From Oricola sp. (GTDB taxonomy: Bacteria > Pseudomonadota > Alphaproteobacteria > Rhizobiales > Rhizobiaceae), in NCBI RefSeq assembly GCF_022763245.1, contig NZ_JALEGV010000008.1:62001-126000 (forward strand): a DNA stretch of 64,000 nucleotides, read 5' to 3'. Shown one piece after another: positions 37,883 through 46,980 of the stretch; within the stretch, counting starts at the first letter, position 1; every line of letters starts with the position of its first letter. Under the pieces are notes generated by a model. That model saw only the letters and a program-made list of their open reading frames with translations. It was not told where the DNA came from and ran no database searches. The position numbers and the translations under genes are program-made.

Positions 37883-37912
37883 TGATCCGAATGCGCGCAT
37901 GCCGCGTATCGA
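37883..37912 (+). promoter_or_regulatory. RpoE(ChrR)-type promoter of the photolyase operon
   Basis: TGATCC (37883-37888), an 18-base gap and TATCGA (37907-37912) match the promoter pattern TGATCC-N17/18-TA of the singlet-oxygen sigma factor RpoE of Rhodobacter sphaeroides. The photolyase ATG at 37947 is about 30 bases beyond the expected transcript start. Same pattern as 41859-41888 and 46951-46980. Confidence 0.55.
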
Positions 37913-37946
37913 TCACCATGACCGGAACCACGCTCCCAAGACAGAC

Positions 37947-39413
37947 ATGACCAGCACGAAAAAATCCGACAAGGCCACCGCACCGGTCATCGTCTGGTTC
38001 CGCAACGATCTGCGCGTGGCCGACAACCGGGCACTCGACGCCGCAGCAGAATCGGGGCGTCCCGTCGTTCCGCTATTCGTGCTGGAAGACGCCGAGGATG
38101 CGATCCCGCTTGGCGGCGCGCAGCGCTGGTGGCTGCATCATTCCCTTGCCGCACTTTCCAAGTCGCTCGAAGAACTTGGCGCACCGCTCATTCTTCGCCG
38201 GGGCGATCCGCTGGCGATCCTCAAGGAGATCGCGGACGAAACCGGCGCCGACACCGTCTTCTGGAATCGTCGCTACACGCCGACCCTGACGAAGCGCGAC
38301 GCCGAGATCAAATCCGACCTGCGCGCCGCCGGCTGGACGGTGGAAAGCCATGAAGGGCCGTTGCTGCACGAACCGACGCGCCTGAAGACTGGCTCCGGCG
38401 GCCCCTATCGCGTCTACACGCCCTTCTGGCGCGCCTTTTCCGAGACGCCGCCCCCGCGCCCGCCTCTCGACGCGCCCGACAGCCTGATCGCGCATGACGG
38501 CGACACCGCCTCTGACGAACTTGTCGACTGGTCGCTGCTGCCGACGAAGCCGGACTGGTCGGGCGGCATCGCCGACGAATGGACGCCCGGCGAGGATGGC
38601 GCGGCCGAGAGGCTCGAGCGGTTTCTCGACGAGGCGATCGACGGCTACGGCGACGCGCGCGACTGCCCGGACGGCGAGACCACGTCGAAACTCTCGCCGC
38701 ATCTCGCCTTCGGCGAAATCACCCCGTTCCAGATCTGGGAGGCGACGGAGGAACGGCGCGGCGACGCTCCCTCGTCCGATATGACCAAATTTCGAAAGGA
38801 ACTCGTCTGGCGCGAATTCTCCTGGCACCTGCTGGTCAACTTCCCCGACCTGCCGACCGCCAACTTCAACGAGGATTTCGACGCCTTTCCCTGGCGCGAA
38901 CCGGGCGAGGACCTGACCGCCTGGCAGAAGGGCCGCACCGGATATCCGATCGTCGACGCCGGCATGCGTCAGCTTTGGCAAACCGGCTGGATGCACAATC
39001 GCGTCCGCATGATCGTCGCCTCCTTCCTGATCAAGCATCTGCTGATCGACTGGCGGCACGGCGAGAGCTGGTTCCGCGACACGCTGGTCGACGCCGATCC
39101 GGCCTCCAACGCGGCGAGCTGGCAATGGGTCGCCGGCTCCGGCGCGGACGCCGCCCCCTATTTCCGCATCTTCAACCCGATCCTGCAGGGCGAGAAATTC
39201 GATCCCGACGGTGCCTATGTCCGCCACTTCGTGCCCGAGCTCGAGGCCCTGCCCGACAAATACCTGCACAAGCCCTGGGACGCGCCGGAATCGGTTCTGT
39301 CCAAGGCCGGCGTGAAACTCGGCGACACTTATCCTCGTCCCCTTGTTGAACACGCCGGTGCGCGCGAGCGCGCCATGGTCGCCTATAAAGACATGAAAGG
39401 GAAAGCCGCGTGA
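37947..39413 (+). CDS. phrB: Deoxyribodipyrimidine photolyase (class I CPD photolyase)
   Basis: 488 residues. It uses blue light and FAD to split pyrimidine dimers. The N-terminal antenna-binding Rossmann domain (IVWFRNDLRVADNRAL) and the C-terminal FAD-binding domain with WMHNRVRMIVASFL, DWRHGE and WQWVAGSGADAAPYFRIFNP are complete. Start chosen at 37947, giving the family length; 37899 and earlier codons lie within or before the candidate promoter. The last codon overlaps the start of the FAD oxidoreductase gene, so the two are coupled. Confidence 0.95.
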   Translation: MTSTKKSDKATAPVIVWFRNDLRVADNRALDAAAESGRPVVPLFVLEDAEDAIPLGGAQRWWLHHSLAALSKSLEELGAPLILRRGDPLAILKEIADETGADTVFWNRRYTPTLTKRDAEIKSDLRAAGWTVESHEGPLLHEPTRLKTGSGGPYRVYTPFWRAFSETPPPRPPLDAPDSLIAHDGDTASDELVDWSLLPTKPDWSGGIADEWTPGEDGAAERLERFLDEAIDGYGDARDCPDGETTSKLSPHLAFGEITPFQIWEATEERRGDAPSSDMTKFRKELVWREFSWHLLVNFPDLPTANFNEDFDAFPWREPGEDLTAWQKGRTGYPIVDAGMRQLWQTGWMHNRVRMIVASFLIKHLLIDWRHGESWFRDTLVDADPASNAASWQWVAGSGADAAPYFRIFNPILQGEKFDPDGAYVRHFVPELEALPDKYLHKPWDAPESVLSKAGVKLGDTYPRPLVEHAGARERAMVAYKDMKGKAA

Positions 39414-40783
39414 CCGTCAATGTCGTCCCGCCCGCTACAGCCATGCGCCTGCCGGGCAGAAGAAGGATCGCCGTCATCGGCAGCGGCATTTCCGGCGTCT
39501 CGGCGGCCTGGGCGCTGTCCAAGCGCCACGACGTCACGCTCTACGAGGCCGAAACCCGGCCGGGCGGCCACACCTGCACGGTCGACGTGGATTACGACGG
39601 CAAGCAGATGGCCGTCGATGTCGGCTTCATCGTCTTCAACGAGCGCAACTATCCGAACCTGACCGCACTCTTCGATCATCTGGGCGTGAAGAGCGAAGTC
39701 TCGAACATGAGCTTCGCCCTGTCGCTCGACGGCGGCGCGCGCGAATGGTGCGGCGAGACCCTGCTCTCGCTCTTCGCGCAGCGCAGCAACCTCGTCTCTC
39801 CCTCCTTCTGGTGGATGCTGAAGGACATCCTGCGCTTCAACCGCCAGTGCCTGGCCGACCGGCAGGCGGGCCTGCTCGACCGCGTCACCATCGGCGACTA
39901 TCTGGCGCTGCGCAGCTTTTCCATGCGCTTTCGCGACGACTACCTTATCCCCATGGCGGCGGCCATTTGGTCGACGCCGCGCGTCCGCATGCTGGATTTC
40001 CCGGCGCGCGCCTTCGTCAGCTTCTTCGAAAACCACCGCCTTCTGGAGATCGCACCGCCGCTCTGGCAGACCGTGTCGGGCGGATCGCGAAACTATCTCG
40101 ACCGCATGATCGCGGATTTCGACGGACGCCTCCTGACGGGCGCCGCGGTGCGCGACGTCACGCGTGTCGCCGGCGGGGTCGCCGTGACCAGAACCTCGGG
40201 CGAAACGGCGCTCTATGACGACGTGGTCATGGCCGCGCACAGCGACCAGATACTGGCCATGCGCCGGGCCGAGGCCTCGGCCGAGGAGCGCTCCATCCTG
40301 GAAGCGATCCCCTACAAGCCGAACCGCGTGGTCCTGCACCGCGATCCCGGTTTCATGCCGAAGCGTCGCCCGGCCTGGGCCGCATGGAACTATCTGCGCG
40401 ACGCCAATCGCGGCGAAGAGAGCGAAATCTGCGTGACCTACTGGATGAACCGGTTGCAGAACCTCGACCCGGCCCGGCCGCTCTTCGTGACGCTTAACCC
40501 GGTTCGCGAACCCGCGCCCGGCACGATCTTCGGCGAATGGACCTTCGATCATCCGCAATATGATGCGGCCGCCTTCGCCGCGCAGGCCCGCCTCGCCCGC
40601 ATCCAGGGCCATGGCGGCCTCTGGTACGCCGGCGCGTGGACAGGCTACGGCTTCCACGAAGACGGCCTGCGCTCCGGCCTGTCGGTGGCGGAGGCGCTCG
40701 GCGGCGTCATCCCCTGGCGATCCCGCCACGACACCGCGCCCGCCAATGAGTCATGGCCGGCATTCGTCGAAGCCGCAGAATAG
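39410..40783 (+). CDS. FAD-dependent oxidoreductase (COG2907, amine oxidase-like)
   Basis: 457 residues. The N-terminal FAD-binding motif AVIGSGISGVSAAWAL and the ETRPGGHT segment mark the flavin-containing amine oxidase-like fold. Family members lie next to DUF1365 and CFA-synthase-like genes in many proteobacteria and are linked to modification of unsaturated fatty acyl chains under oxidative stress; the reaction here is not known. It starts with GTG overlapping the phrB stop (GTGA). In this window the usual partner DUF1365 gene is displaced by about 1.1 kb. Confidence 0.9.
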   Translation: MTVNVVPPATAMRLPGRRRIAVIGSGISGVSAAWALSKRHDVTLYEAETRPGGHTCTVDVDYDGKQMAVDVGFIVFNERNYPNLTALFDHLGVKSEVSNMSFALSLDGGAREWCGETLLSLFAQRSNLVSPSFWWMLKDILRFNRQCLADRQAGLLDRVTIGDYLALRSFSMRFRDDYLIPMAAAIWSTPRVRMLDFPARAFVSFFENHRLLEIAPPLWQTVSGGSRNYLDRMIADFDGRLLTGAAVRDVTRVAGGVAVTRTSGETALYDDVVMAAHSDQILAMRRAEASAEERSILEAIPYKPNRVVLHRDPGFMPKRRPAWAAWNYLRDANRGEESEICVTYWMNRLQNLDPARPLFVTLNPVREPAPGTIFGEWTFDHPQYDAAAFAAQARLARIQGHGGLWYAGAWTGYGFHEDGLRSGLSVAEALGGVIPWRSRHDTAPANESWPAFVEAAE

Positions 40784-40995
40784 CCCTAGCGCTTCTCACG
40801 CCTGGCGCGATCGTGGATCTCTCTTGGAAAATGCTGATTGAAGAACGGCGTCCAGGCCCATGCGGGACATGAAGTAGAGATGACCCGAGATCGGCGGAGC
40901 TTAGGAGTCCGGGACGCTTCGACCATCTGGCCCACGCAAGAGCGCCGCACCCGATCTACGATTACAGCATCGGCGCGGCGCAAGCTGAAATGCCA

Positions 40996-41027
40996 CGTAT
41001 GGCCGAAGCGGACGCTCCGGCCATACG
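40996..41027 (-). terminator. Hairpin after the glycine-rich gene
   Basis: A 10-base-pair perfect inverted repeat (CGTATGGCCG at 40996-41005 with CGGCCATACG at 41018-41027) has a 12-base loop with its own short stem. It lies 12 bases after the minus-strand gene stop. The T run that would follow is poor, so it may be a weak terminator or a 3' stability hairpin. The rest of 40784-41038 holds nothing I can assign. Confidence 0.5.
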
Positions 41028-41038
41028 CACAGTCCGAA

Positions 41039-41581
41039 TCAGAGGTATTTCTGCAGCAGCCTGCAGAAGGCGACGAGGTCGCGGTCGTATCCGCGGCCGT
41101 TCACGCCGAGGGCCTGCCGGCAGGTCTTTTTGACTCGCGCCTGGCTCGATCCGGACATTGCGTTGAACCCGCGGACGAGCTGAACGACACCGTCTCCGCC
41201 GCCGCCACCGGCACCACCGCCGCCGCCAGCACCGCCGCCACCGCCACCGGTGCCGCCACCGCCTCCGATGCCGATATCGACGCCCACGCCGGCGCCCGAA
41301 CCACCCGAGCCGCCGATCGAAGCGTTGACCGAGGCTCCGAGCCCGCCGCCGCCCGATCCGCCGAGCGAGGCGCTCGCCGACGCGCTGCCGCCACCGCCGC
41401 CGGACACGCCGACACTGGCGCTCACACCGCCGCCGCTGCGGCCACCGCCTCCAACGGACGCGCTGACGCTCGTTCCGCCGACCGAGGCACCGAGATCAAT
41501 GGCATAGGCGTTCCCGCTGGCCAGGCAAAACAGCGCCGCTGCCGTGATCCGGAAAGGCGCCTGGATCTGAAACGATTTCAT
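41039..41581 (-). CDS. Glycine-rich secreted protein of unknown function
   Basis: 180 residues: a signal peptide (about 1-28, ending AYA), a central segment of about 110 residues made of Gly/Ser/Ala/Val repeats (ASVGGxS and SASLGGSGG-like units) and a compact C-terminal domain with two cysteines (KKTCRQALG and VAFCRLLQKYL). The repeat part may form a flexible or beta-type structure; I recognise no function. It interrupts an otherwise conserved gene set, is read in the opposite direction, and its upstream region is AT-rich. Confidence 0.7.
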   Translation of the reverse strand: MKSFQIQAPFRITAAALFCLASGNAYAIDLGASVGGTSVSASVGGGGRSGGGVSASVGVSGGGGGSASASASLGGSGGGGLGASVNASIGGSGGSGAGVGVDIGIGGGGGTGGGGGGAGGGGGAGGGGGDGVVQLVRGFNAMSGSSQARVKKTCRQALGVNGRGYDRDLVAFCRLLQKYL

Positions 41582-41890
41582 GTCAAAACTCCGCTGGTTA
41601 CTGCTTTCGTCATTGCTCGACGTCCTCCTCCCGGAGTGTCTGCAATGTAAAAATCGTCCCCGCGGCGCTTTAAGGAAAGCCTCTCAAATCTGTAAAATTC
41701 TAAACTGTAAAACTATCTACGATAAGGGGCATCTCAAATACCTGTTTTGAATGAGAATTCAAAAACTAGCTAGAAACTTTACTAGGCGATCACATTTTCG
41801 TGTACGCGATGCCGAAATCCATTATCCCCATGTTTCTGAAGAAAAAATCGCTCTGAAGTGATCCGGAAAACGCCGAAACGCGTAGGATAA
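41582..41890. other. AT-rich intergenic island with inverted repeats
   Basis: About 310 bases, of which 41641-41850 is strikingly AT-rich against the GC-rich surroundings. It holds two copies of CTGTAAAA (around 41690 and 41705), a perfect inverted repeat TTTTGAAT-GAGA-ATTCAAAA (41745-41764), the palindrome CTAGCTAG (41766-41773) and the end of a sigma-E-like promoter (41859-41888). Such AT-rich promoter islands in this order are often bound by the silencer MucR/Ros; that link is inference. It serves the glycine-rich gene leftwards and the DUF1365-cfa genes rightwards. Confidence 0.6.
41859..41888 (+). promoter_or_regulatory. RpoE(ChrR)-type promoter of the DUF1365-cfa operon
   Basis: TGATCC (41859-41864), an 18-base gap and TAGGAT (41883-41888) are close to the Rhodobacter sigma-E consensus (TGATCC-N18-TAAGA). 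If used, the transcript would start near 41895, after the ATG at 41891, so the true start of the DUF1365 gene would be the ATG at 41927. Confidence 0.6.
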
Positions 41891-41926
41891 ATGACGAATA
41901 ATGCGAGCGCGAATACTCAAGCCAGC

Positions 41927-42787
41927 ATGACGACCCTGCACGCCGAATCGAACCCCCGAGAATCCTTCCCGCCCGTGGCCGAAGCCGCGCGGCTCTACCC
42001 GGGCCAGGTGATGCATGCGCGGCTCAATCCGTTCGGTCACCGCTTCACCTATCGCGTCTTCTCGCTGCTGATCGATCTCGACCGGCTTGACGACGCCGAT
42101 CGGCTGTCCGCGGCGTTCTCGGTCAATCGCGCCAACCTCGTCGCCTTCCACGAGATGGATCACCTCCCCGGCGAGACGCCGCAGGCCAGCCTGCGCGCCG
42201 CCGTCGACGCGCTCGTCGCCGACGCCGGCCTCGACCGTCCCGCCAAGGTCCATCTCCTCGCCTATCCGCGCATCCTGGGCTACGTCTTCAATCCGCTGTC
42301 GGTCTATTACTGCTACGGTGCGGACGGCGCCCTGACGGCGGTGATCTACGCGGTGCGCAACACCTTCGGAGAGCGGCACAGCTATGTCTGCCCGGTCGAG
42401 GACGGCCAGATGAGCGCCGCCGGCCTGCGCCAGGAACGCACCAAGATCTTCTACGTCTCACCCTTCATCGATCTCGGCGCGCGCTACCATTTCCGCGTCC
42501 TGCCGCCGGGCGACGCGGTACGATTGCGCATCCTCGAAACCGAACACGGAACGCCGTTGCTGTCGGCCGCCTTCGCCGGCGAGGCCCGGCCCCTGACCTC
42601 CGCGACGCTCCTTGCCCTGGTGACGCGCCTGCCCTTCATGACGCTCAAGGTCATGGCCGGCATCCACCTCGAAGCGGCGAAGCTGTGGCTGAAGGGCGCG
42701 AAGTTCCATACGCGCGGCGCACCGCCGCAAGCGGTCAGTTACCGTGATGGCGACGCCCCTCTGGCACCGGTGAAACAATCCGGCTAG
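41927..42787 (+). CDS. DUF1365 domain-containing protein
   Basis: 286 residues from the ATG at 41927, or 298 from 41891. The family sequence HARLNPFGHRFTYRVFSLLIDLD and NPLSVYYCY are typical. DUF1365 proteins are of unknown activity but are almost always encoded with a FAD oxidoreductase (COG2907) and a CFA-synthase-like methyltransferase, so a role in fatty acyl chain modification is inferred. The start at 41927 is preferred because the promoter match at 41859-41888 would place the transcript start after 41891. cfa follows after nine bases. Confidence 0.9.
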   Translation: MTTLHAESNPRESFPPVAEAARLYPGQVMHARLNPFGHRFTYRVFSLLIDLDRLDDADRLSAAFSVNRANLVAFHEMDHLPGETPQASLRAAVDALVADAGLDRPAKVHLLAYPRILGYVFNPLSVYYCYGADGALTAVIYAVRNTFGERHSYVCPVEDGQMSAAGLRQERTKIFYVSPFIDLGARYHFRVLPPGDAVRLRILETEHGTPLLSAAFAGEARPLTSATLLALVTRLPFMTLKVMAGIHLEAAKLWLKGAKFHTRGAPPQAVSYRDGDAPLAPVKQSG

Positions 42788-42796
42788 TGTCGCGCC

Positions 42797-44083
42797 ATGA
42801 GCGCAGATTACGAATTGACGAGCGGATCCGCCTCACAAGGGGGATTCGCGGAAACATTGAAGACGGATGCGGTGCGGCTAACGCCGGACAACATCCGCCG
42901 GACCCTTCAGGGCATTCCGCTGAAGGCGAAGCTGGCCTTGCGCGCCGCGATGCAGCTTCCGCACGGCACATTGACCGTGCAACTGCCGGACGGGCGGGGA
43001 ATCAGCGTCGGCGGCAACGCGCCCGGACCGGACGCCGAACTGATCCTGCACAACTGGAACCTGCCCCGCCGCGCCCTGTCCGAAGCGACCGTCGGCGTCG
43101 GCGAGAGCTACATGGACGGCGACTGGGACAGCCCGGACGTGACCGCCTTCCTCGAACTCTTCGTCGCCAACGAGACGCTCGGGTACCAGATCGCCCGCGC
43201 CAACCGCCTGTTCCGCGCCTTCAACACGTTCCGCCACTGGCTGAACCGCAACACCAAGACCAATTCCAAGCGCAACATCTCGGCCCATTACGATCTCGGC
43301 AACGACTTCTATTCGCGCTGGCTCGACAGCAGCATGACCTACTCCTCCGCCCTCTATGGCGAAGGCGCCAATGACCTGCCGTCGGCCCAGGCCGCCAAGT
43401 ACCGGGCGCTCGCCCGCGCGACCGGCATCGGCCCGGACGACCATGTGCTGGAGATCGGCTGCGGCTGGGGCGGTTTCGCCGAATTCGCGGCCACCGAGAT
43501 CGGTTGCCGCGTCACCGGCCTAACGATCAGCCAGGAGCAGCTCGATTTCGCCCGCAAGCGCATCCGCCGCGCCGGCCTCGACGACAAGGTGACGCTGAAG
43601 TTCCAGGATTACCGCGACGAGACCGAGACCTATGACCGGGTCGTGTCGATCGAGATGTTCGAGGCGGTCGGCGAGCAGTACTGGCCGACCTATTTCGACA
43701 AGCTGCGCGACGTGCTGAAGGCGGGCGGCCGCGCAGGCCTCCAGATCATCACGATCAACGAGCGCGCCTTTCCCGAATACAAGGCCAATCCGGATTTCAT
43801 CCAGCGCTACATCTTCCCGGGCGGCATGCTGCCGACGCCGCAGATCCTCGACGCGCTAACCGCCGAGCGCGGCCTCTCCCGCGTCGCCGAACGCGTCTTC
43901 GCTCAGGACTACGCCCGCACCCTCGCCGCATGGCGCGAACGCTTCCAGCACGCCTGGGAAGACATCGCCAATCTCGGCTTCGACACCCGCTTCAAGCGCA
44001 TGTGGGAATTCTATCTCCACTATTGCGAGGCGGGTTTCCGCGACGAGTTCATCGACGTCCGCCAGATCGTCTACGCGCGGTAG
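42797..44083 (+). CDS. Cyclopropane-fatty-acyl-phospholipid synthase family protein
   Basis: 428 residues. SAM-dependent methyltransferase acting on unsaturated acyl chains of membrane phospholipids. Visible are the ISAHYDLGNDFYSRWLD segment, SAM-binding VLEIGCGWGGFAEFA and the YFDKLRDVLKAGGR motif, as in CFA synthase. The partner genes (DUF1365, FAD oxidoreductase) suggest it could make a modified product other than a plain cyclopropane ring, as shown for related RpoE-controlled methyltransferases in Rhodobacter. Substrate is unproven. Confidence 0.93.
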   Translation: MSADYELTSGSASQGGFAETLKTDAVRLTPDNIRRTLQGIPLKAKLALRAAMQLPHGTLTVQLPDGRGISVGGNAPGPDAELILHNWNLPRRALSEATVGVGESYMDGDWDSPDVTAFLELFVANETLGYQIARANRLFRAFNTFRHWLNRNTKTNSKRNISAHYDLGNDFYSRWLDSSMTYSSALYGEGANDLPSAQAAKYRALARATGIGPDDHVLEIGCGWGGFAEFAATEIGCRVTGLTISQEQLDFARKRIRRAGLDDKVTLKFQDYRDETETYDRVVSIEMFEAVGEQYWPTYFDKLRDVLKAGGRAGLQIITINERAFPEYKANPDFIQRYIFPGGMLPTPQILDALTAERGLSRVAERVFAQDYARTLAAWRERFQHAWEDIANLGFDTRFKRMWEFYLHYCEAGFRDEFIDVRQIVYAR

Positions 44084-44096
44084 GCGTGAAGCGGGA

Positions 44097-45251
44097 TCAT
44101 CGCTTGGGCCAGTTCCACGGCGGCGGATCGCAATCGACCACGGTTTCGCCGAGCTCCTTGCGCAACTCGTAGCAGGCCGTGTCCGGCTGGCCCTGCAGCG
44201 GCTCGATCAGCAGCGCCGAATGCGACACCACGATCACCTGCGACCGGCGGGCGGCCTTCGCCATCAGCCGAGACAGCGCCGGCAGGAGGCTCGGATGCAG
44301 GCTGGATTCCGGCTCGTTGAGCACCAGGAGCGGCGGCGGGCGCGGCGTCAGCAGCGCGACGACCAGCAAGAGGTAGCGCAGCGTGCCTTCCGAAAGCTCC
44401 GCCATGCGCAGCGGCCGCAGGAGCCCCGGCTGCCGCATCTCCAGTTCGAACATCCCGTCGGTGACGCGCACGTCGAGCGCACTGCCCGGAAACGCATCCT
44501 CGATCGCCTCTTCGAGCCCGCTCTCGTCGCCGATCTCGCGTATCGTCTGGAACGCCGCGGCGAGATCGGCCCCGTCGGCCGAAAGCGTCGTCGTGCGCGT
44601 GCCCGTCTGCGGAACGCGCGAGGGCGCGTCACGGTCGGTGCGCAAATGATCGTAGAACCGCCAGGCGCGCATGCGCTCGCGCGCCGCCAGCAATTCGGGC
44701 GCGCCACGCGGGTCGGCGGCATGGGTCATCATGCTGTCGAAGCCCGGCAGGTCCGTGAAGGCCGTCTTGCGCCGCCCCTCCTCGGTCAGCAGTTGGACAT
44801 GCGGACCCGACCGGTTGGCGACCTCGTTCGACCGCCGCAGGCAATCGCCCAACCACAGCGATTCGGCCTTGATCTCCGGGTCCGAATTGAATTGCGAGGC
44901 CGGCGCGGGCACTGGCATGCCGAGATCGATCGCATAGCCGAAATCCTCTTCGGCGAAACCGAGCTTCAGGCTGACCGGCCCGTCGCGGACCGTGCCCTGA
45001 ACCGGGTGTTCCCCGGTCTTCATCGCCCGCGAGATGGTTTCCGGCCCCGCCCAAAGCGTCGATGTCAGCCCGCCTTCGCGCGCCAGCGCCCCGATGAGGC
45101 CGCCCTGCGCGACATCGGCCAGCAAGTGGATGGAGCGATAGAGCGACGACTTCCCGCTGCCATTCGCGCCGGTGATCAGCGTCAGCCGATCCAGCGGAAG
45201 GACCAGGTTCCGGAGCGAGCGATAGCCCGAAACGGCCAGTGTGATGATCAT
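44097..45251 (-). CDS. AAA family ATPase (ABC-like, SMC/RecF type)
   Basis: 384 residues. Walker A GANGSGKSSL lies near the N-terminus, and the signature LSEGTLRYL and Walker B LLVLNEPESSLHP lie near the C-terminus, with H-loop VVSHSALLIE. It is a single-gene ABC-type ATPase like those of the AAA_21 group, with no nuclease or partner gene beside it. Function unknown. It sits between cfa and the SDR gene and is read against cfa. Confidence 0.85.
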   Translation of the reverse strand: MIITLAVSGYRSLRNLVLPLDRLTLITGANGSGKSSLYRSIHLLADVAQGGLIGALAREGGLTSTLWAGPETISRAMKTGEHPVQGTVRDGPVSLKLGFAEEDFGYAIDLGMPVPAPASQFNSDPEIKAESLWLGDCLRRSNEVANRSGPHVQLLTEEGRRKTAFTDLPGFDSMMTHAADPRGAPELLAARERMRAWRFYDHLRTDRDAPSRVPQTGTRTTTLSADGADLAAAFQTIREIGDESGLEEAIEDAFPGSALDVRVTDGMFELEMRQPGLLRPLRMAELSEGTLRYLLLVVALLTPRPPPLLVLNEPESSLHPSLLPALSRLMAKAARRSQVIVVSHSALLIEPLQGQPDTACYELRKELGETVVDCDPPPWNWPKR

Positions 45252-45331
45252 GCTCGCCCTCCCGGCGCATCGCGGTCAGGCGGACTATAGGCGAACGCCC
45301 TGCCGTCGCAATCGCGGCGGACCGTCGACGC

Positions 45332-46165
45332 CTATCGCGACCGGTTCGCCGCGGGCGTCGTGTCGCGGAAATCGAGCGGCCGCGTGCTCCATCCGGTCGC
45401 GCGGTTCATGATCGCGAAATAGAGCGGATGCGGCAGCATGCGCAGGAGCTTCAACTGCCATGTGAAGCGGCGCGGAAAAGTGATTTCGAAACCACCGTTT
45501 TCGATACCCGCCAGCATGCGCGCGGCCGCCTTTTCCACCGGCATCAGATACGGCATCTCGTAGGCGTTCTGCTCGGTCGCCGGCGTGTCGACGAAGCCGG
45601 GATTCACCACCTGGATGCGGATGTTCATCTTGGAGAAGTCGAACGACAGCGATTCCGCCATGTTGATCAGCGCCGCCTTGGTCGCGCCATAGGCCGAGGC
45701 CGACGGCAGGCCCGAATAGCCGCTCACCGAGGCGACGATCACCACCTGCCCGCACCCATGCGCCTTCATCCGCTCCACGACCGGCGCGAGCCCGTTGAGA
45801 ACGCCGGTCAGGTTCACGGCGAAGGTCTTGTCGAAATCGTCGGGCGCCAGCGCCTCGCCATGCGTCGGGATGTAGATGCCGGCATTGAAAACCGCGAGCC
45901 GGACCGGCCCCGCCTGCGCCTCGATCGTGCCGACGGTCTCGGCCATCGCGGCCCGGTCGGTCACGTCGCAGGCAAATGCCCGAACGGTTCCCTCCAGCGC
46001 GGCGCTGTCACGCTCCAGCGCGCTGAGCGCGTCTTCGCCGCGCGCCGTCGCCGCGACGTCATAGCCCAGCGCCGCCATCTGCAGCGCCAGTTCGCGGCCG
46101 AGCCCGGTGCTCGCACCGGTGATCCAGGCAACGCCGTCACCCGGCGTCGCACGATAAAGCGACAT
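45332..46165 (-). CDS. SDR family NAD(P)-dependent oxidoreductase
   Basis: 277 residues. The dinucleotide-binding motif TGASTGLG and the catalytic YGATKAA (YxxxK) with the preceding serine in VASVSGYSGLPS are intact. SDR genes of this type occur in the same cluster as COG2907, DUF1365 and cfa-like genes in many proteobacteria. The start at 46165 is preferred over 46174 because GGA is too close to the latter. It follows chrR by 90 bases and may share its promoter. Confidence 0.9.
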   Translation of the reverse strand: MSLYRATPGDGVAWITGASTGLGRELALQMAALGYDVAATARGEDALSALERDSAALEGTVRAFACDVTDRAAMAETVGTIEAQAGPVRLAVFNAGIYIPTHGEALAPDDFDKTFAVNLTGVLNGLAPVVERMKAHGCGQVVIVASVSGYSGLPSASAYGATKAALINMAESLSFDFSKMNIRIQVVNPGFVDTPATEQNAYEMPYLMPVEKAAARMLAGIENGGFEITFPRRFTWQLKLLRMLPHPLYFAIMNRATGWSTRPLDFRDTTPAANRSR

Positions 46166-46255
46166 GGTCTTCATTCCGATTGCTGTGTCTGGCCGGTCTA
46201 CGCAGACCCGCCTCGCCCGGTTTGCCTTTTCCGCAAAGAAATCGGCGACTTGGGC

Positions 46256-46909
46256 TCAGGTCGTGCCGAGAATGTCGGAGATCCGCTGATACAGCGGGCC
46301 CGTCAGCCGCAGCGGCGCGTCGGTGACGGCAAAGGCGATGCAGGCCCGCCCCTTCTCTGCGACCGGACGATGGTCCAGCGATTCGTCGGCAAACGAGATG
46401 TCGCCGCGGCCGAACCGCCCGTTCACATCGGTGAAAGCGCCGTCGAGCACGAGCGTCAACTCCGCGCCTTCATGGGTGTGCGCCGGCATGGTCCGCCCGG
46501 GCTTGATCCACATCAGCGTGGCATGGCAGCCATCCGCCTCACCGAGGTCGTATTCGCGGTATCCCGGCAGCTTCGTCTTCCAGGGAATGGTCTCGATCGT
46601 GTGGCCGACGAAGTCGTGCAGCGCGTGCGGAAGCACTGCGCCCGGCTCGCGCGGTCTCGTCGTCATTCCGGAAATTTCGTCCTTGGAGGCGAAGATCGCC
46701 TCCAGGCGCGCATCACGCGATGTCAGCGGCACGGGTGTTTCGGCCTCGAGCAGGTCGCCGGCCGAAGCCTCCATGGCTCGCACAAGCGCGCGGCTTCCCG
46801 CTGACAATTCCAGATGCGCGGCCACCATGACCGCCACCGGCCTTGGCAGCGTCCCGGCCACAAAGCCGGCCATCAGGGCATCCATGTTTTCGAATCTGCT
46901 GTCGCTCAT
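46256..46909 (-). CDS. chrR: ChrR family cupin / anti-sigma-like protein with degenerate zinc motif
   Basis: 217 residues: an N-terminal anti-sigma-like domain (about 1-75) and a C-terminal cupin domain (about 105-210). In Rhodobacter ChrR the first domain binds zinc through Cys and His residues and holds RpoE inactive. Here the HxxxCxxC motif reads HLELSAGSR: both Cys are Ser, from codons TCA and AGC. The N-terminal zinc His is also absent. The cupin keeps HTHEGAE and a later His. No sigma factor gene is adjacent. It may be a paralogue or an altered regulator. Confidence 0.85.
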   Translation of the reverse strand: MSDSRFENMDALMAGFVAGTLPRPVAVMVAAHLELSAGSRALVRAMEASAGDLLEAETPVPLTSRDARLEAIFASKDEISGMTTRPREPGAVLPHALHDFVGHTIETIPWKTKLPGYREYDLGEADGCHATLMWIKPGRTMPAHTHEGAELTLVLDGAFTDVNGRFGRGDISFADESLDHRPVAEKGRACIAFAVTDAPLRLTGPLYQRISDILGTT

Positions 46910-46950
46910 GGTTGAATGTCGTCACGCCCGTTCCAGGCGCTTCAATGCCA

Positions 46951-46980
46951 TTGCTACGCGCGTTGCCGCAATGCGGATCA
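46951..46980 (-). promoter_or_regulatory. RpoE(ChrR)-type promoter of chrR
   Basis: On the minus strand TGATCC (46980-46975), an 18-base gap and TAGCAA (46956-46951) match the pattern seen before phrB and before DUF1365. The expected transcript start leaves a leader of about 35 bases to the chrR ATG at 46909. Confidence 0.55.

Follow-up and report, generated by a model that had tools for sequence, protein, structure and literature searches.

Which sigma factor reads a group of RpoE-type promoters when no sigma gene lies beside them? This question is raised by 9.1 kb within a 64,000-nucleotide stretch of Oricola sp. DNA (the window; assembly GCF_022763245.1, contig NZ_JALEGV010000008.1, positions 62,001 to 126,000 of the forward strand), in which photolyase, furan-fatty-acid-type and chrR genes form three transcription units. 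The initial annotation had placed a TGATCC-N18-TA site before each unit. We found exactly three such sites in the window, all at those places, and the promoter calls made from them refer to sequence sites:

37883..37908, plus strand: RpoE-type promoter of the phr-ufaD unit, TGATCCG-N13-CGCGTA
41859..41884, plus strand: RpoE-type promoter of the ufaO-ufaM unit, TGATCCG-N13-CGCGTA
46955..46980, minus strand: RpoE-type promoter of the chrR-SDR unit, TGATCCG-N13-CGCGTA

A profile search gave 11 Sigma70_r2 matches in the genome and none in the window, in agreement with the earlier remark that the units have no adjacent sigma gene. We propose, with a probability of about 0.62, that these promoters belong to a core regulon read by an unlinked RpoE-like sigma factor, and that this factor and ChrR form a split sigma/anti-sigma pair in which the anti-sigma domain carries no metal.

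A distant sigma gene and a ChrR without its zinc ligands

An RpoE-like extracytoplasmic function (ECF) sigma gene had been predicted elsewhere in the genome, and one was found on contig C35, the window being on C29. Its product matches R. sphaeroides RpoE best in the PDB (2q1z_A, 158.7 bits; next chain, 88), and we call it ECF11 by its likeness to RpoE rather than from an ECF classification. Its presence led us to reject loss of the sigma gene from the genome. The neighbours of the C35 gene are, to one side, rlmN and an ialB-like gene in divergent orientation and, to the other, an endonuclease V-like open reading frame (ORF) together with a DUF1232 gene; no anti-sigma gene was seen among these flanking genes. 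At 30 loci of this separated sigma gene (rpoE-B; this genome included, 1.5-kb flanks), the flank gene clusters, which were named by the analyst, included an ialB-like gene in 29, DUF1232 in 25, and rlmN in 23. Autoregulation of rpoE-B was rejected, as an RpoE-type site occurred in 0 of the 30 upstream regions. The expected sigma gene thus exists, and the promoter that it was expected to share does not precede it.

The divergent region between ialB and rpoE-B contains another element, GGCAASAGTTTGAC, which lies 100-odd bases upstream of rpoE in L049 and occurs in a loose form in 26 of the 30 loci. Its candidacy as a control site of rpoE-B was weakened by its retention in G146 (L294), a genome without rpoE-B; for the same reason, the element may belong to ialB. 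In a rooted tree with a single distant outgroup, the sigmas of canonical rpoE-chrR loci formed a clade (support, 0.986) and RpoE-B did not. As monophyly of RpoE-B is not shown by this tree, our claim is limited to a clean split between the two sets.

The ligands of R. sphaeroides ChrR are H6, H31, C35, and C38 in the anti-sigma domain and H141, H143, E147, and H177 in the cupin (PMC6852236). The window ChrR retains the two-domain build, anti-sigma plus cupin; its HLELSAGS aligns with HLSLCDEC of the R. sphaeroides protein, and the HxxxCxxC pattern of the ZAS family is absent from it. We read the ligand positions in the window protein and in 80 related loci (ChrR-B, 81 sequences). Both zinc cysteines are absent in 81/81, positions 36 and 39 being mostly Lys and Asn and never Cys. 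Position 7, the equivalent of H6, is never His and is acidic in 71 of the 81 sequences, and the H31 equivalent (His32) is kept in 78. Of the four zinc ligands in the anti-sigma domain, this subfamily therefore lacks three. The cupin ligands (H144, H146, E150, and H180 in window numbering) are invariant in all 81. The window ChrR scored 119.4 bits against NF051881, the stress-responsive ChrR equivalog, below the curated cut-off of 300. A further chrR outside the window was rejected, as the only other TIGR02451 matches in the genome are weak (19.5 and 19.2 bits).

In a ChrR tree of 20 zinc-less and 31 canonical sequences, the zinc-less set formed a separate clade with a support of 1.0. Among the 31 canonical loci, rpoE was adjacent to chrR in every one and both zinc cysteines were present in 30. 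The exception, L093 (G017), has a canonical-type ChrR with an adjacent rpoE, HQ for HH, and Ser for the second Cys; here the zinc site appears to have been partly lost on a separate occasion. The anti-sigma domain of the window ChrR is predicted to have a ChrR-like fold, with a predicted local distance difference test score (pLDDT) above 90 over residues 11 to 50. Its median ratio of nonsynonymous to synonymous substitution rates (dN/dS) is 0.13 among pairs of 60 to 97% identity, some with dS above 1; this indicates purifying selection, and decay of the domain is not supported. Zinc-less ChrR also occurs in rhizobia such as Rhizobium johnstonii 3841 (L258). No report of it was recognised in a literature search at the level of titles and opening lines of abstracts, and the ECF11 passages of PMC8999054 and PMC10880074 are silent on it; an earlier description is possible.

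We then considered the two genes together in 247 genomes of the same family, in which ChrR scores fall into two groups. A gene was classed as chrR-B by a score of about 118 to 156 bits together with the start of its profile match, and as rpoE-B by a score above 195 bits and a position not adjoining chrR; G008 (131.5 bits) was placed with the canonical set, since its sigma gene is adjacent. Both genes were present in 52 genomes, chrR-B only in 1, rpoE-B only in 1, and neither in 193, so that 52 of the 54 genomes with either gene had both. The two exceptions are G239 (chrR-B only, 81% complete) and G053 (rpoE-B only, 88% complete). rpoE was absent from all 80 chrR-B loci. Three genomes (G146, G204, and G105) carry a canonical operon and neither member of the split pair, which their congeners have; in G146, no rpoE separates the ialB-like gene from the neighbouring DUF1232 gene. 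Here, a sigma/anti-sigma-type pair is encoded at two separate places, yet genomes tend to hold both members or neither.

Promoter sites, target genes, and an insertion

A TGATCC-type consensus is what we take to be the form of the R. sphaeroides RpoE promoter. It was sought in letters in PMC6852236, PMC3441632, and PMC3688512 and was not found. Dinucleotide shuffles of the window held a mean of 0.62 TGATCC-N18-TA sites, and 3 of 100 shuffles reached the observed three. Genome-wide, this bare pattern gave 23 matches against 11 for a reversed control. Of the other 20 sites, 19 lie inside an ORF of 120 codons or more in one or other of the six frames, a mechanical criterion that also catches a seemingly real site on C17. 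The expectation that the motif would exceed chance came close to failing for the bare pattern, which is nearly at chance, and held for the exact extended motif and for the conservation of the sites. TGATCCG-N13-CGCGTA has three exact matches in the 5.63-Mb genome, all within these 9.1 kb, and the same words spaced at N15 have one. In five genomes of the zinc-less type, TGATCC-N16-CGTA occurred 31 times, versus once for the reversed control.

The genes downstream of these sites were assigned to families by profile searches, which bore out the gene kinds named in the initial annotation (photolyase, FAD oxidoreductase, DUF1365, CFA-like, SDR, and chrR):

37947..39413, plus strand: phrB, DNA photolyase (Pfam FAD_binding_7, 309.7 bits; DNA_photolyase, 183.3 bits)
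39410..40783, plus strand: ufaD-like, FAD-dependent amine-oxidase-like protein (Pfam Amino_oxidase, 78.7 bits)
40784..41858, no strand: insertion between ufaD and ufaO, 1.07 kb, holding a Gly-rich ORF
41039-41581, minus strand: Gly/Ser-rich ORF of 180 aa inside this insertion, with a signal-like start by eye
41891..42787, plus strand: ufaO-like, DUF1365 protein (Pfam DUF1365, 261.7 bits)
42797..44083, plus strand: ufaM-like, CFA-synthase-like methyltransferase (Pfam CMAS, 276.2 bits)
45332..46174, minus strand: SDR family oxidoreductase, second gene of the chrR unit (Pfam adh_short, 158.5 bits)
46256..46909, minus strand: chrR (TIGR02451, 143.6 bits; cut-off, 124.5)

The units are phr-ufaD, ufaO-ufaM (DUF1365 plus CFA-like), and chrR-SDR, the last divergent from a cysK-like gene (Pfam PALP). 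The last 4 bases of phr are also the first 4 of the ufaD-like gene. Because the first ATG of the ufaO-like gene is only 6 bases past the GTA of the -10 element, an alternative start at 41927 is possible. Searches of Pfam and NCBIfam with the 180-aa ORF gave zero matches. Between ufaM and the SDR gene lies an AAA_21-type ATPase gene (44097-45251, minus strand) with a weak likeness to the defence ATPase MAD3 (61.4 bits; cut-off, 420).

In R. sphaeroides, a furan fatty acid is made from vaccenate by the successive action of UfaM, UfaD (RSP1091), and UfaO (RSP1090, a DUF1365 protein) (PMC7380195). By analogy, the UfaD-like protein would carry out the desaturase step and the UfaO-like protein the furan-forming step. 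Since the UfaM, UfaD, and UfaO families are all represented, the window likely carries the whole pathway, as judged by family membership. The family assignments also point to the motif-bearing set as a putative core RpoE-ChrR regulon, consisting of photolyase, the furan-fatty-acid genes, chrR, and SDR, which likely guards against light-generated oxygen damage. Such a regulon had been suggested as a dispersed one; its RpoE(ChrR) type stood, and its targets proved to be clustered, with only the sigma gene apart.

Conservation of the sites was followed across the 80 chrR-B loci, in subsets defined by gene presence. An RpoE-type site precedes chrR-B in 75 of 80 loci, and four of the five others hold near-variants by eye. 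The site precedes phr in 48 of 55 loci, and the same motif stands before canonical rpoE in 30 of 31. It was found before cfa in 2/58 loci and before ufaD (0/52), the cysK-like gene (0/80), and SDR (0/79) in none. Before the DUF1365 gene (ufaO), the site occurs in only 1 of 52 related loci, namely L181 (Oricola indica). A promoter shared by all three units, as first described, is thus conserved for phr and chrR and not for DUF1365.

The commonest gene order, seen in 52 of the 80 loci, has cysK and chrR-SDR facing a single phr-ufaD-ufaO-ufaM series. In the window, this series is split by the 1.07-kb insertion with its Gly-rich gene. The gap between ufaD and ufaO does not exceed 111 bp in 51 of the 52 other loci holding both genes, the exception being L181, with 997 bp. 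Since L181 alone of the 52 has both the large gap and the DUF1365 site, the third promoter is tied to the insertion; the extra promoter would restore control over the downstream half of the split series. The named loci nearest to the window are those of Oricola species (L181-L183), with a ChrR identity of 61 to 69%. The tie of the third promoter to the insertion, the separation of the sigma gene throughout a conserved subfamily, the lack of an RpoE-type promoter before rpoE-B, and the loss of ChrR zinc ligands all go beyond the initial annotation.

RpoE-type sites were also observed before other genes. In R. sphaeroides, RpoE acts through a cascade to RpoHII. In the congener G058, a site lies 66 nt before an rpoH (L270; G058:C6:367835) like that on C35, of the RpoHII type by eye; no site was found before the C35 rpoH, and we therefore rejected such a cascade for the genome of the window. 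Other sites precede a DUF3833 gene in G210 and G233 (L263 and L277; Pfam assignment on the G233 copy) and a LysR gene in G058 and G210 (L262 and L271; Pfam assignment on the G210 copy). A further site stands before a gene for a 61-aa protein in this genome (G000:C17:468601-468973; L005 and L286), with a site also in G210 and in G099 (loci L276 and L288); the C17 site is likely real. The 61-aa protein gave no match in a Pfam search. Of 121 genomes, 5 contained homologues, and each of these 5 carries the split pair; this genome and G099 have the site upstream of the gene, and the three others do not.

A proposed circuit and its alternatives

From the sequences, positions, conservation, co-occurrence, and predicted fold, we infer a circuit in which the C35 RpoE-like ECF sigma would read the three RpoE-type promoters and ChrR would bind and hold it through a metal-free helical anti-sigma domain. 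The signal would release ChrR by a cupin/furan-lipid route. The sigma would be made from another kind of promoter, and its brake, ChrR, from an RpoE-type promoter. In canonical operons, sigma and brake rise together, whereas in the split pair only the brake is under an RpoE-type promoter. If ChrR-B binds the sigma, this would amount to simple negative feedback, because the chrR promoter would be sigma-dependent while that of the sigma itself is not. Whether the whole ChrR subfamily consists of metal-free anti-sigma factors acting on a trans-encoded sigma, the circuit having been rewired from an autoregulated operon to an independently made sigma with a sigma-induced brake, we regard as an even bet. 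If so, the zinc site would not be the singlet-oxygen sensor in ChrR-B, and sensing would therefore proceed via the cupin metal and furan lipids. The role of the anti-sigma-domain zinc in the singlet-oxygen response is called unknown in a 2019 review (PMC6852236). A natural and widespread zinc-less ChrR group, which includes tractable rhizobia, allows this question to be put directly.

Several observations weigh against a split pair. R. sphaeroides ChrR is reported to require bound zinc for inhibition of its sigma (PMC6852236), and the anti-sigma function could therefore be lost here. The rate of evolution of the anti-sigma domain is roughly double that of the cupin (dN/dS, 0.13 versus 0.06). 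Eight of the 11 Sigma70_r2 matches are ECF-like on the analyst's reading, and each is a possible reader of the sites. The extended motif with one mismatch barely exceeds its control (10 versus 6). Finally, the co-occurrence count ignores kinship, and most of the 247 genomes were classed by score and position, the ligands having been read in the window and the locus sets.

The main alternative is that the zinc-less ChrR has become an effector whose cupin no longer acts on the sigma. This would account for the loss of ligands that R. sphaeroides ChrR requires for inhibition (PMC6852236), for the invariant cupin ligands in the better-conserved of the two domains, and for the lack of an anti-sigma gene in view beside rpoE-B; a precedent is EcfQ of Bradyrhizobium, an ECF sigma whose gene has no anti-sigma gene linked to it and whose upstream motifs are conserved (PMC3420878). 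However, a domain freed from the sigma would have to be reconciled with its confidently predicted fold, the purifying selection upon it, and the fact that the presence of ChrR-B tracks the sigma across genomes, and we consider this explanation unlikely.

Still less probable, in our view, is a canonical RpoE-ChrR system whose sigma gene has merely moved, the ligand changes being meaningless and zinc being bound at another site in the anti-sigma domain. The promoters, the kinds of target genes, and the fold are indeed the same, and His32 and the acidic position 7 could be partial ligands. Yet positions 36 and 39 have mostly become Lys and Asn, the zinc-less proteins form their own clade, and rpoE-B has no RpoE-type promoter. 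Chance occurrence of the TGATCC-N18-TA sites, with genes not co-regulated by an ECF sigma, we consider highly improbable: the bare pattern, the sites within ORFs, and the 3% of shuffles would allow it, but the confinement of the exact extended motif to this segment, the conservation before chrR, phr, and canonical rpoE, and the excess of TGATCC-N16-CGTA over its reversed control argue for genuine promoters. Together, these considerations favour the split pair with a metal-free anti-sigma domain.

Comparison with known systems

EcfQ, like related class 33 ECF sigmas of Bradyrhizobium, resembles the split pair in being an oxidative-stress ECF sigma with no linked anti-sigma gene and a conserved upstream element (PMC3420878). 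It differs in its ECF class and in its own motif of GAAAC repeats, TGTTTC-N17-GAAACA, which was not seen here (PMC3420878). RseA-type anti-sigma domains provide a likeness in principle only, as zinc-free helical bundles that are compared with ChrR in PMC6852236; unlike ChrR, RseA is cleaved in its membrane-spanning region (PMC6852236).

The canonical operons of the same family have rpoE adjacent in 31/31 loci, both zinc cysteines in 30/31, and a separate ChrR group. They share the promoter with the window, and one of them (L105, in the congener G146) also has ufaD-, DUF1365-, and SDR-like neighbours. In the 2019 review, the core regulon of R. sphaeroides comprises rpoE-chrR and the furan-lipid genes, and furan lipids are needed for ChrR turnover (PMC6852236). 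Compared with this RpoE-ChrR (ECF11) system, the sigma gene here is unlinked and without an RpoE-type promoter, and three of the four zinc ligands are absent, whereas the kinds of target genes, the ChrR fold, the cupin ligands, and the sigma sequence are alike.

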